DNA of 64,000 bases, from NCBI RefSeq assembly GCF_030286555.1, contig NZ_JASVWF010000003.1:806001-870000 (forward strand), written 5' to 3'. Below are positions 20,417 through 26,158 of the stretch, piece after piece. The notes under the pieces were generated by a model, which saw only the letters and a program-made list of their open reading frames with translations, was not told the origin of the DNA and ran no database searches. Both the position numbers and the translations under genes were made by a program. The first letter of the stretch is position 1. The number at the start of each line of letters is the position of its first letter. The DNA is from Actinomycetospora termitidis. Its GTDB lineage: Bacteria; Actinomycetota; Actinomycetes; Mycobacteriales; Pseudonocardiaceae.

Positions 20417-22624
20417 TCAGGAGGAGGCGTGTCCCAGCTTCTCGGTCAGCTGGCCCAGCAGCTCCGTCGCCGCGTCCGCGATCACCGTGCCCGGGCCGAA
20501 GATCGCCGCCGCACCGCCGGAGTAGAGCTCGTCGTAGTCGCCGGGCGGGATGACCCCGCCGGCCACGATGAGGATCTCCTCCGCGCCGAGCTCGGCCAGG
20601 GCGTCGCGCAGCGCGGGCACCAGAGTGAGGTGACCGGCGGCCAGCGACGACACCCCGACGACGTGCACGTCGGCCTCGACGGCCTGGCGCGCGACCTCCT
20701 CGGGGGTCTGGAAGAGCGGGCCCACGTCGACGTCGAAGCCGAGGTCGGCGAACGCGGTGGCGATGACCTTCTGTCCGCGGTCGTGGCCGTCCTGGCCCAT
20801 CTTCGCGACGAGGATGCGGGGCCGGCGGCCCTCGGCCTCCTCGAACGCCTCGGCGGCCGAGCGCGCCTTCTCCACCGCCGAGTTCTCACCCACCTCGTCA
20901 CGGTAGACCCCGGAGATCGTCCGGACGTCCGAGCGGTGCCGGCCGTAGACCTTCTCCAGCGCGTCGGAGATCTCGCCGACCGAGGCGTGCGCCCGCGCGG
21001 CGTCGATCGCGAGCTTGAGCAGGTTCCCGTCGAGACCGGACCCGCGCTTCCCCTCGGCGGCGTCGGAGGCCGCGTTGGTCAGCGCCGTCAGCGCCGACTC
21101 CACCGCCGCGGCGTCCCGGTCGTCGCGGAGCTCGGCGAGCCGTGCGACCTGCTGGCGCAGCACGTCGGCGTTGTCGACCTTGAGCACGTCGACGTCCTCG
21201 CCGCCGAGCAACGGGTACTTGTTGACCCCGATCACCGGCTGGCGGCCCGAGTCGATCCGCGCCTGGGTGCGGGCGGCCGCCTCCTCGATGCGCATCTTCG
21301 GCAGACCCTCGTCGATCGCCTTCGCCATGCCGCCGGTCGACTCGACCTCCTCGATGTGCGCCCAGGCGCGCCCGGCGAGCTCGCGGGTCAGCCGCTCGAC
21401 GTAGGCGGAGCCACCCCACGGGTCGACGGTGCGCGTCGTGCCCGACTCCTGCTGGAGCAGCAGCTGCGTGTTGCGCGCGATCCGGGCGGAGAAGTCGGTC
21501 GGCAGCGCGAGTGCCTCGTCGAGGGCGTTGGTGTGCAGCGACTGCGTGTGGCCCTGGGTCGCGGCCATCGCCTCGACGCAGGTGCGGACCACGTTGTTGT
21601 AGACGTCCTGGGCGGTCAGCGACCAGCCGGAGGTCTGCGAGTGGGTGCGCAGCGACAGCGACTTGTCGTTCTGCGCCCCGAAGCCCTTCACGAGCTTGGC
21701 CCACAGCAGTCGTGCGGCCCGGAGCTTGGCGATCTCCATGAAGTAGTTCATGCCGATGCCCCAGAAGAACGAGAGGCGCGGCGCGAACCGGTCGATGTCC
21801 AGCCCGGCGTCCCGCCCGGCCCGCAGGTACTCCACGCCGTCGGCGAGGGTGTACGCGAGCTCCAGGTCGGCCGAGGCCCCGGCCTCCTGGATGTGGTAGC
21901 CCGAGATGGAGATCGAGTTGAACTTCGGCATCTTCTCCGAGGTGTAGCTGAAGATGTCCGAGATGATCTGCATCGAGGGCGCGGGCGGGTAGATGTAGGT
22001 GTTGCGGACCATGAACTCCTTGAGGATGTCGTTCTGGATGGTCCCGGCGAGCTTCTCGGGCTCGACGCCCTGCTCGGACGCCGCGGCCACGTAGAGCGCC
22101 ATCACGGGGAGCACGGCCCCGTTCATGGTCATGGACACCGACATCCGGTCCAGCGGGATGCCGTCGAAGAGCTGGCGCATGTCGAGGATCGAGTCGATCG
22201 ACACCCCGGCCATGCCGACGTCGCCGGCCACGCGCGGGTTGTCCGAGTCGTAGCCGCGGTGGGTCGGCAGGTCGAAGGCGACCGACAGGCCCTTCTGCCC
22301 GGCCGCGAGGTTGCGCCGGTAGAAGGCGTTCGACTCCTTGGCCGTGGAGAACCCGGCGTACTGGCGCACCGTCCAGGGCTGGGTGCGGTACATCGTCGGG
22401 TAGGGCCCGCGCAGGAACGGCGGGAGCCCGGGGAGGGTCTCGAGGAAGTCGAGGTCCTCGGTGTCGGCGCCGGTGTAGAGCGGCTTCACCCCGATGCCCT
22501 CGGGGGTCTCCCAGAGCAGGTCGTCGGCGTCCTTGCCGGTCGCCTCCTGGAGTGCCTCGGTCCAGTCCCGGTCGGCCGGCCCGGGCGTCCCGAGCTCGAC
22601 GTCGGCGAACGATCCGATGCCCAT
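20417..22624 (-). CDS. mutB: Methylmalonyl-CoA mutase, large (catalytic) subunit
   Basis: The 735-residue alpha subunit interconverts (R)-methylmalonyl-CoA and succinyl-CoA with adenosylcobalamin. The TIM barrel carries the signature region [20 protein letters not shown] and the [16 protein letters not shown] block. The C-terminal flavodoxin-like domain has the base-off B12 motif [10 protein letters not shown], whose His is the cobalt ligand, near residue 610. It follows mutA by 3 bp, with a Shine-Dalgarno (GGGAG) inside the mutA end, so the two are translationally linked. With meaB nearby this completes the core of propionate carbon entry into the TCA cycle. Confidence 0.97.
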
Positions 22625-22627
22625 GGT

Positions 22628-24529
22628 TCAGACTCCCAGCTCGTCGAGCAGGTCGGTCAGCAGCGCGGCCGCGTCGCACCCGGTGTACAGGTACCCGGTC
22701 AGCGCCGTCGAGTCCTCGGAGGTGAGGCCCTCGGTGCGCGGCGAGCCGGCGAGGATCACGCGGGTGGCGCCGGCCTCGGCCAGCGCCGACGCGAGCGGCG
22801 CCGCGTGCTCCGCGTAGACCTTGTCCGACGACGCGACCACCGCGATCGGCGTGCCCGCCTCCCGGAACGCCGTGACGATCTCGTCGATCTCCGTGCCGCC
22901 CGGGCCCTCGACGACGTCGACCCCGCCGGCGTGCAGCAGGTTCGTCGCGAACGACGCCCGCGCCGTGTACTGCGCGAGCGCGCCCACGGTGGCGAGGAAG
23001 GCGGTCGGACGCTGCGGGGCCGCGTCGCTGCGGTCGCGGAGGTCCTCGAAGACCTGGGCGTAGCGGCGGCGCGGCAGGCCGCCCTGCTGGTCGCCCGTTC
23101 CCGACGGCGGGGCGGCGCGCTCGGGCAGCGTCTCGTGCAGGTTCGGGAACTCGCTGACGCCGGTGATCGGGTCCTTCCGGTGCGCGATCCGGTCGGCCCG
23201 CGCGGTCCAGGTGTCCTCGAGCGCCGACGCCAGGGAACCCCTATCGGCGTGCTCGTCTGGATCCAGCACGGCCTCGATCCCGCCGTCGCGCTCGATCCCG
23301 GTGAACACGTCCCAGGCGGCGTGCGCGAGGGCGTCGGTGAGCGACTCGACGTACCAGGAGCCGCCCGCCGGATCGATGACGTGCGCGAGGTGCGACTCCT
23401 CGAGCAGCAGCGCCTGGGTGTTGCGGGCGATGCGGCGGGAGAAGTCGTCGGGCAGGCCGAGCACGGAGTCGAAGGGCAGCACGGTGACCGCGTCGGCGCC
23501 GCCGAGGCCGGCCCCCGCCGCGGCGACCGTGGTGCGCAGGATGTTCACCCACGGGTCGCGGCCGGTGAGCATCGCCGGCGAGGTCACGGCGTGGGTGCGC
23601 ATCGCGCGGGCCGGCTCCGACGCCCCCGCGACCGACCCGATGCGGTCCCAGCAGCGGCGCGCGGCGCGCAGCTTCGCGAGGGTGGCGAACTGGTCGGCGG
23701 TGGCGGCGAACCGGAACTCGACGCGGGCGAAGGCGTCGTCCACCGACAGCCCCGCGTCGTCGAGCAGGCGCACCGCGTGGAGTCCGGCGGCGAGCGCGGC
23801 GCCCAGCTCCTGCCCGTCGGAGCCGCCCGCCTCGTGGAAGGGGAGCCCGTCGGCGACGACCGTGGCGAGGTGCGGGTGGCTCTCCGCGGCGGTCCGTGCG
23901 TGGTCGACGAGGGCCGAGCGGTAGGCGTCGGTCAGCGGCCCGCCGCCGCGGGTGCGCGCGAGGAGCGGGTCGTAGCCCAGCGAGCCGCCCAGGGCCGTCG
24001 TCACGCCACCGGCGCGGGCCAGGTCGAGCAGGGCCGCGGCGGCCTCCGGGGTGTCGCGGCCGGCCTCGAGCGCGACCGGGGCGAGGTCGAGGAACACGCC
24101 GTCGAGCAGCCGCGGCAGGGCGTCGACGGGCGGCCCGCCGGCCTCGCCGAGCACGAGCCACAGCGACGAGACGCCGTTCTCCAGCTCGGCCATGACCACG
24201 TCGTGCGCACCCTCCAGGTCGGTCAGGGCGTGGCGCTGGCGGCGGTACCAGCCGTCCGCGACGTGGCCCTCCGGCCGCGACGCGCGGGTGAACGGCGGGA
24301 GCCCCGGCGCGCCGGTCGGCACGCCGGGCGCGTCCTCGGCGGTGTAGAGCGCCGCGATGGAGAACCCGTCGTCGGTGGCGGTGGCGATCGCCGCCTCGGC
24401 GTCGGCCGGGTCGACCTCCCGGCCCGACTTCGCGAGCACCCCCGCGACGAGCTCGCGCCACGCGTCGCGCGTCGGCGTCGCGAACTCGCCCGCGAGCACG
24501 AGCTCCTCGGGCGCCTCCGGTGCAGTCAT
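22628..24529 (-). CDS. mutA: Methylmalonyl-CoA mutase, small subunit
   Basis: The 633-residue beta subunit is homologous to MutB but lacks the DxHxxG cobalamin motif, as is normal for the non-catalytic partner. Recognisable parts are GLPPFTRASRPEGHVADGW, RIARNTQALLLEESHLAHVI and PAGGSWYVESLTDALA. It is the first gene of the mutA-mutB pair. The 84-bp space before it (to aroG) has a direct repeat (CCGGACCGGTTCA at 24554 and CCGGATCGGTTCA at 24591) of unknown meaning. No cobalamin riboswitch fits in this space. Confidence 0.96.
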   Translation of the reverse strand: MTAPEAPEELVLAGEFATPTRDAWRELVAGVLAKSGREVDPADAEAAIATATDDGFSIAALYTAEDAPGVPTGAPGLPPFTRASRPEGHVADGWYRRQRHALTDLEGAHDVVMAELENGVSSLWLVLGEAGGPPVDALPRLLDGVFLDLAPVALEAGRDTPEAAAALLDLARAGGVTTALGGSLGYDPLLARTRGGGPLTDAYRSALVDHARTAAESHPHLATVVADGLPFHEAGGSDGQELGAALAAGLHAVRLLDDAGLSVDDAFARVEFRFAATADQFATLAKLRAARRCWDRIGSVAGASEPARAMRTHAVTSPAMLTGRDPWVNILRTTVAAAGAGLGGADAVTVLPFDSVLGLPDDFSRRIARNTQALLLEESHLAHVIDPAGGSWYVESLTDALAHAAWDVFTGIERDGGIEAVLDPDEHADRGSLASALEDTWTARADRIAHRKDPITGVSEFPNLHETLPERAAPPSGTGDQQGGLPRRRYAQVFEDLRDRSDAAPQRPTAFLATVGALAQYTARASFATNLLHAGGVDVVEGPGGTEIDEIVTAFREAGTPIAVVASSDKVYAEHAAPLASALAEAGATRVILAGSPRTEGLTSEDSTALTGYLYTGCDAAALLTDLLDELGV

Positions 24530-24613: not shown

Positions 24614-25663
24614 TCACCGGACGGCCGCGGCGAGCTCGTCGAGCAGCGACACCGTCGTCTCCCAGCCCACGCAGGCGTCGGTCACGCTGCGGCCGCGCAC
24701 CATGTCCGGTCCCATCTCCTGCCGCCCCTCGACGAGGAAGCTCTCCACCATCACCCCGGCGACCGGCCCGCCCCGGGCCCGTTGGCCGGCGAGGTCGGCC
24801 ACGACCGCGGGCTGGTTGCGGTGGTCCTTGCCCGAGTTGCCGTGGCTCGCGTCGACGACCACGCGGCCCGCACGGCCCTTCGCCCGCAGCGCCGAGCACG
24901 CCGCGGCGACGGAGGTCTCGTCGTAGTTGGGTCCGCCGGAGCCGCCGCGCAGGATGAGGTGCGCGTCGGCGTTGCCCGTCGTCGTGATGAGTCCGGCGAG
25001 CCCCTCGGTGGTCACGCCCATGAAGGCGTGCGGCGCCGCCGCGGCCCCCACCGCGTCGATCGCGACCCCGACGTCGCCGTCGGTCCCGTTCTTGATCCCG
25101 ATCGGCATCGACAGGCCGCTGGCGAGCTGGCGGTGCACCTGGCTCGCGGCGGTCCGAGCCCCGATCGAGCCCCAGGAGACGAGGTCGGCGAGGTACTGGG
25201 GGGTGATCGGGTCGAGGAACTCACAGCCCAGCGGCAGGCCGAGCGCCGCCAGGTCGAGCATCAGCGCGCGGGCGGTGCGCAGGCCCCGGGCGACGTCGAA
25301 GGAGCCGTCCATCCCCGGGTCGTTGATCAGGCCCTTCCAGCCCACGGTCGACCGCGGCTTCTCGAAGTAGGTGCGCATCACCACGTGCAGTCGGTCGGCG
25401 TGGCGCTCCGCCTGCGCGGCCAGGCGCGCGCCGTACTCGCGGGCGGCGTCCGGGTCGTGGATCGAGCACGGACCGACCACGACCAGCAGACGGTCGTCCT
25501 CGCCGCGCAGGATCGCCTCGGCGCCGTCGCGCCCGCGGTGCACGGACTCGGCGACGTCGGCGGAGGCGGGCAGTTCGTGGCGCAGCAGCGCGGGGGACGG
25601 CAGCGGGGTGACGGCGGCCGTGCGCGCGCCGTCGAGCGGCCGACTGTCCAGAAGGGCGGTCAT
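24614..25663 (-). CDS. aroG: 3-deoxy-7-phosphoheptulonate (DAHP) synthase, class I
   Basis: The 349-residue enzyme condenses phosphoenolpyruvate and erythrose-4-phosphate at the entry of the shikimate pathway. It is of the AroF/G/H (class I) type, shown by VVGPCSIHDPDAAREYGARL, VVMRTYFEKPRSTVGWKGL, EFLDPITPQYLADLVSWGSI, the KNGTDGD segment, and VVDASHGNSGKDH. Many actinomycetes rely mainly on a class II enzyme; this class I copy may be an additional isoform. The gene is preceded by a 21-codon leader with Trp-Tyr-Arg-Phe and by competing hairpins, so ribosome-mediated attenuation by aromatic amino acids is likely. Confidence 0.95.
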   Translation of the reverse strand: MTALLDSRPLDGARTAAVTPLPSPALLRHELPASADVAESVHRGRDGAEAILRGEDDRLLVVVGPCSIHDPDAAREYGARLAAQAERHADRLHVVMRTYFEKPRSTVGWKGLINDPGMDGSFDVARGLRTARALMLDLAALGLPLGCEFLDPITPQYLADLVSWGSIGARTAASQVHRQLASGLSMPIGIKNGTDGDVGVAIDAVGAAAAPHAFMGVTTEGLAGLITTTGNADAHLILRGGSGGPNYDETSVAAACSALRAKGRAGRVVVDASHGNSGKDHRNQPAVVADLAGQRARGGPVAGVMVESFLVEGRQEMGPDMVRGRSVTDACVGWETTVSLLDELAAAVR

Positions 25664-25708
25664 CGAAGGCTCCAGGGTCCTGCCGGACCCGAGCCCGCCA
25701 CCGTGCCG

Positions 25709-25731
25709 CGCGAGCCGGGGTCCGGCTCGCG
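25709..25731 (-). terminator. Attenuator hairpin in the aroG leader
   Basis: On the minus strand, 10-bp perfect GC-rich arms (CGCGAGCCGG and CCGGCTCGCG) with a 3-nt loop begin 10 bp after the leader stop codon. The segment GCCGGACCC of this hairpin can instead pair with GGGTCCGGC at 25682-25690, giving two exclusive structures. The downstream GGGTCC-TGCC-GGACCC hairpin (25675-25690) lies beside the aroG Shine-Dalgarno. Confidence 0.55.
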
Positions 25732-25741
25732 GGGATGGGGT

Positions 25742-25807
25742 CTAGCGCAGCGGTCTACCCGCCGACCCCTCCCGGGCCGGGCACGTAAACCGGTACCAGC
25801 GCTGCAC
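25742..25807 (-). CDS. Aromatic leader peptide (WYxF) upstream of DAHP synthase
   Basis: A 21-codon frame reads VQRWYRFTCPAREGSAGRPL plus Arg and a TAG stop. It starts at GTG with AGGGTG eight bases upstream. Codons 4, 5 and 7 are Trp, Tyr and Phe, the three end products of the pathway served by the gene 78 bp downstream. This is the classic arrangement of a ribosome-stalling leader peptide. It begins 24 bp after the barstar stop, so the promoter lies in or before that gene. The coding evidence is the residue content, the Shine-Dalgarno and the hairpins; it is too short for homology to be conclusive. Confidence 0.65.
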   Translation of the reverse strand: MQRWYRFTCPAREGSAGRPLR

Positions 25808-25831
25808 GACGATCACCCTACTCGATGTCCG

Positions 25832-26158
25832 CTACGACACGCGGGTGACCCGGAACGGCCGCTCGCCCTCCGTGCCGCTGGCCCCGTGGAGGATCTCCTG
25901 GATCAGGCGGTGGGTCCGCGGGTCGGCGTCGCGCAGGGGCCCGTCCGCCCAGATCAGCTCCACGGGCCCCACCGGCAGCCACGAGAGGTCGCGCACGCTC
26001 TCGGCGAGCGCGTCGATGCTGGTGGCGTGGTAGTCGGGGAAGCGCAGCGCACGGCCGATCGCGGCGAGGGTCGTCTGCTCGTCCGCGGCCTCGGCCACGA
26101 TCCCGACGGTGCGCGCTCGCTCCCGGGCCCGCGTCCGGGCGAGGGACAGGTCGGTCAT
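25832..26158 (-). CDS. Barstar-family protein (orphan RNase inhibitor)
   Basis: The 108-residue protein shows the barstar fold signature in its centre: LAAIGRALRFPDYHATSIDA, then LAESVRDLSWLPVGPVELIW, with an acidic surface. Barstars inhibit barnase-type RNases. No barnase or other ribonuclease gene is adjacent, so the partner is elsewhere or the protein has another role. The ATG has GGGAGCGG upstream. It precedes the aroG leader on the same strand with only 24 bp between them. Confidence 0.85.
   Translation of the reverse strand: MTDLSLARTRARERARTVGIVAEAADEQTTLAAIGRALRFPDYHATSIDALAESVRDLSWLPVGPVELIWADGPLRDADPRTHRLIQEILHGASGTEGERPFRVTRVS

Follow-up and report, generated by a model that had tools for sequence, protein, structure and literature searches.

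Leader Frames with Trp, Tyr and Phe Codons as Probable Attenuators of Class I DAHP Synthase Genes in Actinomycetes

Upstream of the class I DAHP synthase gene of Actinomycetospora termitidis lies a short open reading frame that reads Trp, Tyr and Phe within four codons and that, together with the RNA following it, probably constitutes a leader-peptide attenuator, sensing the charging of the three aromatic tRNAs for the first step of the shikimate pathway and acting through a relay of RNA pairings that would close the Shine-Dalgarno sequence (SD) of the gene. Comparison of related sequences gives good support to ribosome-mediated attenuation by such a leaderless leader peptide with three aromatic amino acids; beyond this, we infer the direction of the switch, control at the level of translation and the response to each amino acid. 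Three end products depend on the first step of the pathway, for which Escherichia coli has three isoenzymes that are separately repressed and inhibited; here, one short frame seems to form an OR gate for three tRNAs. To judge from its distribution, the element represents a widespread variant of ribosome-mediated attenuation.

The leader frame, its gene and its start signal

The stretch of DNA that was analyzed, hereafter the window, comprises 64,000 nt, and all features described below lie on its minus strand. The putatively regulated gene (24614..25663) encodes a class I DAHP synthase of the aroFGH type (TIGR00034, 4e-140; PF00793), as an earlier reading of the sequence alone (the sequence-only reading) had assumed. 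The nearest named relative of the protein is from Actinomycetospora chiangmaiensis (Pseudonocardiaceae), with 90% protein identity. The gene in the window is the only class I DAHP synthase gene of its genome, which also encodes a type II DAHP synthase elsewhere and harbors a single leader element (model R1, E = 8e-11; next match 0.29). Within the genus, the occurrence of class I DAHP synthase is patchy, with 8 genomes encoding it and at least 10 without it (E <= 1e-60). As for the neighboring genes, a Barstar-family gene (25832-26158; PF01337, 1.2e-10) ends 11 nt before the -10 box of the leader, and the region after the DAHP synthase gene (20417-24529) contains two methylmalonyl-CoA mutase genes, one of which has a B12-binding domain.

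The leader frame, VQRWYRFTCPAREGSAGRPLR, occupies positions 25742..25807 and comprises 21 codons from a GTG start to a TAG stop (25744-25742), 78 nt before the start of the DAHP synthase gene. It reads GTG CAG CGC TGG TAC CGG TTT ... CTG CGC TAG, corresponding to a peptide that begins with VQRWYRF and ends with PLR, exactly as first read. The presumed regulatory codons (25787..25798) are TGG for Trp (25798-25796), TAC for Tyr (25795-25793) and TTT for Phe (25789-25787).

The sequence-only reading had, furthermore, assigned an SD to the leader. We rejected this assignment, since the purine stretch in question, TAGGGT (25815..25820), lies 7 nt before the leader GTG and fits a -10 box. In a scan for TANNNT boxes that permitted gaps of 4-10 nt to any start codon in the frame, the box ended 7 nt before the start codon in 47 and 6 nt before it in 18 of 67 leaders (65/67 together), and the remaining 2 leaders have a gap of 10, for which an extra GTG 3 nt earlier, noted by eye, gives back a spacing of 7. 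Locus L071, a false positive of the score, is left out of this set. As this is the -10 spacing of a leaderless transcript, we read the leader as probably leaderless, with a transcript whose 5' end would be the start codon of the leader. Leaderless leader peptides are known in other actinobacterial attenuators, according to passages in PMC8079986 and PMC5784534.

RNA pairings between the frame and the ribosome-binding site

The RNA of the leader region contains a series of segments with alternative partners. Segment A (CCGGCCCGGGAGGGG, 25766..25780) lies inside the leader frame and can either fold on itself (A:A') or pair with segment B (CGAGCCGGA, 25721..25729) after the stop. The other partner of B is segment B' (CCGGCTCGC, 25710..25718), and B:B' corresponds to the GC hairpin GCGAGCCGG-ACC-CCGGCTCGC of the sequence-only reading, which we found to start 11 nt past the leader stop. 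Segment Bx (GCCGGACCC, 25718..25726) is the alternative partner of segment C (GGGTCCGGC, 25682..25690), to which it is complementary and which is located just ahead of the gene's GGAG. The second partner of C is segment D (GGACCCTGGAGCC, 25668..25680), which includes this GGAG (25673-25670), the SD of the gene; in the minimum free energy fold, it is closed by GGCTCGGGTCC (25695-25685). Thus, the complementarity on which the sequence-only reading had based two exclusive structures is present (25726-25718 with 25690-25682), the two structures being B:B' and Bx:C, and the A:B helix, the SD-covering hairpin C:D and the leaderless start go beyond that reading.

In an alignment of 34 sequences, A:B forms a 12-pair helix between the in-frame segment right after the aromatic codons and the segment after the stop. 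Pairing is retained in 86.4% of cells compared to 74.2% in shuffles, with double changes in 53 cells compared to 19 +/- 3.5, and 0/500 shuffles reach both measures. A shift of the helix by a single column reduces the pairing by almost half. Variants of A and B include GGCTCCGGGTGG/CCACCCGGAGCC, GGCTCTGGAGG/CCTTCAGAGCC and, with one mismatch, GCCGGCCCTGGATGGG/CCCATCCAGAGCCGGC. Within the family of the window, the A..B region is too conserved for covariation to be informative.

For the pairings close to the gene, we used 39 representatives of the 104 sequences in which B and B' are close, out of 117 distinct sequences; like the statistics on Trp codons given below, the permutation tests carry no correction for shared ancestry. 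The own-species energy of Bx:C is -13.1 compared to -11.1 after permutation, with 0/10000 permutations as good, and that of C:D beats 9999/10000 permutations. Among the 37 representatives with CCG in place (99 of the 104 sequences), 17 have their own exact CGGNNN complement in Bx:C, compared to 3.7 expected and a maximum of 11 in 2000 permutations. These exact triplets are of eight different kinds and are confined to 47 of the 99 sequences. Moreover, relatives with approximately 78% leader identity show matching changes on both sides of Bx/C, for example AAG/CTT versus CAG/CTG, so that the second of the two exclusive structures is accompanied by compensatory change. By sequence comparison, A:B, Bx:C and C:D therefore appear as mutually exclusive pairings tied to the frame, and a chain of such pairings with compensatory changes can form from the leader frame to the ribosome-binding site of the gene.

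Based on these pairings, we propose that the transcript begins at the leader's own start codon and that a ribosome passing TGG, TAC/TAT and TTT undelayed would reach the stop, after which B would pair with B'. With B:B' formed, C would be left to pair with D, closing the SD of the gene (off). A ribosome waiting at any of the aromatic codons would instead leave segment A, just downstream, free for B; A:B would then release B', which would take C, D would open and the gene would be translated (on).

In folding, suggested as a check by the sequence-only reading, the leader RNA is more stable than expected (z = -3.4). The switch itself is not reproduced at equilibrium: a model of SD accessibility applied to 101 of the 117 distinct sequences gave no difference between ribosomes at the aromatic codons and at the stop (0.54 versus 0.53, p = 0.80, n = 101). 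In six examples, A:B is as stable as the rival fold (within 1 kcal/mol of the best) in L005, L016 and L119 and approximately 5, 8 and 11 kcal/mol worse than the best fold in L086, L010 and the window, respectively, the window being the worst. The flat equilibrium model and the cost of approximately 11 kcal/mol for forcing A:B in the window would require a kinetic switch.

No terminator-like site was detected in positions 25550-25950 of the window, so that the terminator with a U-run that characterizes trp-type attenuators is absent from this region. Therefore, control in the window is probably exerted at the translational level, and a translational output via the RNA relay seems likely for the family of the window as well. 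In lineages outside this family and in a few inside it, inspection by eye revealed that B and B' are separated by a terminator-like hairpin. Of the 117 distinct sequences, no more than 104 have B and B' too close for a terminator, and at least L152 among these 104 still shows a hairpin between them. In lineages with such a terminator hairpin, A:B presumably acts on transcription, as reported for aroR. Among the few sequences inspected by eye for a pairing that could disarm the terminator hairpin, none was convincing.

AroR, the leader of the aroF operon of Corynebacterium glutamicum, was reportedly described by Neshat et al. in 2014 and is treated in PMC11802643, PMC7356990 and PMC4046766. In a review (PMC11802643), stalling in this Phe-Tyr-Phe leader under Phe limitation is stated to enhance transcription of the aroF operon, and the relevant passage of PMC7356990 terms the control translational, by Phe and Tyr. 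The review's transcriptional account and the terminator-like hairpins of related lineages are what could be expected if the leader peptide acted by premature (e.g., Rho-dependent) termination, with the SD hairpin as a by-product of high GC content. Against such an output speak the lack of a terminator-like site in the stretch of the window just named and the compensatory changes in C:D and Bx:C beside the SD, and we regard it as possible, if rather unlikely.

Codon content and the element ahead of chorismate mutase genes

For the comparison of codon content, leaders were counted as distinct if they differed in nucleotide sequence, with near-duplicates retained and the leaders of genus g53 left out. 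Of 165 distinct DAHP-synthase leaders, 145 contain Trp, Tyr and Phe codons, 14 Tyr and Phe, 3 Trp and Phe, and 3 Trp and Tyr. Hence, Trp occurs in 151/165 and Tyr in 162/165, despite altered order and neighbors. The clusters include RWYRF, YYWF, QYWF, YFWF, WYAYF, YWRF, LYPWF and RWQFY, and the order differs by genus, with QYWF and YYWF in Pseudonocardia, YFWF in Amycolatopsis, WYAYF in Arthrobacter, AYWRF in Williamsia, FYWF in Actinoplanes and RWYRF in the window. A composition that is kept while the order shifts is expected of tRNA sensing rather than of a fixed peptide or RNA motif. In the genera g89 and g111, DAHP-synthase leaders lack Trp in the cluster (type RRYPYF), as do those of a few other loci. 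These Trp-less g89/g111 leaders are L191, L194, L196-L200, L202, L203, L207-L209, L218 and L266; L202, L208 and L209 have a Trp further down the leader peptide, outside the cluster.

Of the DAHP-synthase leaders with a Phe codon in the cluster (159 from a set of 161 distinct leaders), 153 have TTT as the last such codon, as do 18/18 chorismate mutase leaders; Phe codons that come before it in the cluster are mostly TTC. In the CDS-like open reading frames of the window, which were selected for a GC3 above 0.88 and are thereby biased against T-ending codons, TTT accounts for 0/374 Phe codons and TAT for 6/254 Tyr codons, compared to 99/156 and 65/113, respectively, in the leaders of the window's family. 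Rare synonymous codons may raise the sensitivity to tRNA charging; alternatively, TTT may reflect an RNA constraint at a fixed position.

When 394 genomes of the class were searched with model R1, 68 had matches at E <= 0.01, with the best place ahead of a class I DAHP synthase gene in 46, ahead of a gene encoding a chorismate mutase domain in 18 and ahead of neither in 4 (L245, L246, L247, and L259). Judged by these placements, the predicted RNA element is specific to DAHP synthase and chorismate mutase genes. In searches of more than 40 genomes, strict filters lose weak matches, and counts such as these are lower bounds. Of four chorismate mutase proteins that were scanned, two are stand-alone CM_2 proteins and two carry CM_2 behind a shortened DAHP-synthase-like domain, which is perhaps a dead regulatory domain. 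The DAHP-synthase-like Pfam match of the fused proteins spans residues 83-168 of 270 in L229 and 93-201 in L253, and frames resembling these two were seen by eye in L231-L235, L237-L241 and L243.

In family f19, which is rich in such chorismate mutase loci (61 genomes sampled), 32 genomes have model matches, and among the 30 loci listed, 7 are located before DAHP synthase and 23 before chorismate mutase genes. The element is not universal before the former, being present at 7/28 class I DAHP synthase loci of this family. Two of 29 loci, L323 and L324, have no leader under the strict rule and were not counted; by eye, L324 reads RWYWRF.

DAHP synthase supplies Trp, Tyr and Phe, whereas chorismate mutase supplies Phe and Tyr only. 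Of the 33 distinct chorismate mutase leaders, 19 contain Tyr and Phe, 13 Phe only and a single one (L329) Trp, so that Trp is missing in 32/33, in contrast to the DAHP-synthase leaders (Fisher 9e-25, kinship ignored). In the f19 genomes G502 and G528, no strict-rule leader precedes the class I DAHP synthase, and the chorismate mutase leader contains Tyr and Phe. By this comparison, the codon content of the leader appears to follow the regulated enzyme, and the chorismate mutase leaders, with their missing Trp codon, can be regarded as a natural experiment on the role of the codons.

These counts bear on whether sensing by the leader is in effect limited to one or two amino acids, for instance Phe via the rare TTT, with the other codons as bystanders. 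The great constancy of TTT as the last Phe codon would agree with this, as would C. glutamicum, where Tyr availability is stated to have no effect on the aroF operon though the leader contains Tyr (PMC11802643); the presence of a codon is therefore no proof of sensing. Yet bystander codons would hardly be expected to include Trp and Tyr in almost all DAHP-synthase leaders, nor to lose Trp in nearly all leaders before chorismate mutase. We therefore consider a sensor of only one or two amino acids doubtful and favor a leader that reads all three.

Conservation across the class and comparison with known leaders

In a first collection, a clustered W/Y/F leader was detected by score at 66 of 80 loci with related DAHP synthases, compared to 0/10 non-actinobacterial loci (Rokubacteriota, Deltaproteobacteria, and myxobacterial records). 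L061, which fell below the score cut yet has a leader with Trp and Tyr, was added by hand to later sets. In the family of the window, a class I-type DAHP synthase is encoded in 170/297 genomes (E <= 1e-60), and 99 of 109 upstream regions, consisting of 80 picked among the matches listed and 29 further loci of the same search, harbor a W/Y/F-rich leader at the same position. The ten misses are four loci of genus g26 and six divergent genes with less than 60% identity (L185-L190). At the g26 loci (L122, L171, L173, and L179), no leader frame is left, and inspection by eye shows that the post-stop hairpin and the SD-side segments persist in part; these loci look like natural losses of the sensor.

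Conservation of the frame, the aromatic trio, the in-frame RNA segment and the downstream hairpins extends far outside this family, and the comparison with relatives, set beforehand as the check on a conserved short frame and hairpin, did not refute the sequence-only reading, whose interpretation is supported. The presumably translated frame is enriched in codons for the end products, as in known attenuators. A search across the phylum yielded matches in 24/296 genomes at E <= 0.05; none of the 15 from other classes reached 1e-3, and 0/15 of their loci matched the DAHP synthase or chorismate mutase query. Whether a class-wide leaderless family exists in the full sense, reading three aromatic tRNAs, relaying to the ribosome-binding site free of a terminator and lacking the Trp codon before chorismate mutase, we hold to be an evenly balanced proposition.

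It is very improbable that the conservation reflects an RNA that binds a protein or a metabolite, with the short frame being incidental: segments A and B are indeed strongly conserved and the leader RNA has no match among Rfam families, including T-box, which leaves room for a riboswitch of a new type, but the -10 spacing, the open frame and the aromatic composition survive changes in codon order, and the Trp content tracks the regulated enzyme. The leader itself is real and far from chance. Trp, Tyr and Phe codons within 8 codons together with a -10-type box occur in 98/110 upstream regions (the 109 and the window), compared to 2/4400 dinucleotide shuffles, 0/110 reverse strands and 0/2000 shuffles of the window region. 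Dropping the box leaves 98/110 observed and raises the controls to 47/4400, 2/110 and 8/2000, respectively, so that trio frames do arise in shuffled GC-rich DNA, but with conservation and the box refuting it, the probability of a chance frame is negligible.

Classical trp and phe attenuators use one amino acid per leader and an intrinsic terminator with a U-run. The window resembles TrpL and PheL in its short frame rich in end-product codons, its exclusive pairings and the synthesis gene downstream, and differs from them in combining three amino acids and in probably blocking the SD. Multi-amino-acid leaders exist for branched-chain genes, such as Streptomyces ilvL with Ile, Val and Leu (a passage in PMC8079986). 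The leuA leader or LEU element of Actinobacteria (PMC1262725; LeuL1 in PMC8079986), described as leaderless in S. lividans and devoid of a typical terminator, is likewise a leader peptide whose downstream gene is the first of an amino-acid pathway; compared by description, it is unlike the window in sensing leucine only and in having a conserved pseudoknot.

Searchable portions of the open-access literature yielded no description of a W-Y-F leader, and a text search of PMC4833913 and PMC2965389 for gene and amino-acid names gave no match. The leader table of the S. lividans reannotation, as excerpted from PMC8079986, contains no DAHP synthase leader. Furthermore, the accessible sections of Seliverstov et al. 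2005 state that no conserved RNA structures were found before Phe and Tyr operons in Actinobacteria (PMC1262725), a gap in that survey which the element described here fills.

The closest counterpart appears to be AroR. In genus g53, which belongs to the same order, a class I gene is present in 9/41 genomes, and 8 of these 9 loci have a leaderless aromatic leader, with FYF in 7 (WRFYF in 3 of these) and QYY in 1. Inspected by eye, the g53 leaders contain an A/B-like segment pair, GGCTCCGG and a segment resembling CCGGAGCC, followed by a T-rich terminator-like hairpin. At L271, the two segments have changed in concert (GGCTTCGG/CCGAAGCC), and the first 14 bases of the gene are those of the C. 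glutamicum aroF primer quoted in a passage of PMC7356990. Based on this gene start and the Phe-Tyr-Phe leader, g53 was taken for Corynebacterium, and Corynebacterium AroR appears to be one member of the leader family of the window. The two share a leaderless aromatic leader, the A/B pair (in g53 by eye) and a class I DAHP synthase downstream; they differ in that g53 has mostly Phe-Tyr-Phe and a terminator-like hairpin, whereas the window has Trp, Tyr and Phe without a terminator. The leader may be relevant to the production of aromatics by actinomycetes as well, and removal of aroR is one step in building an engineered C. glutamicum strain, as stated in an excerpt of PMC7356990.
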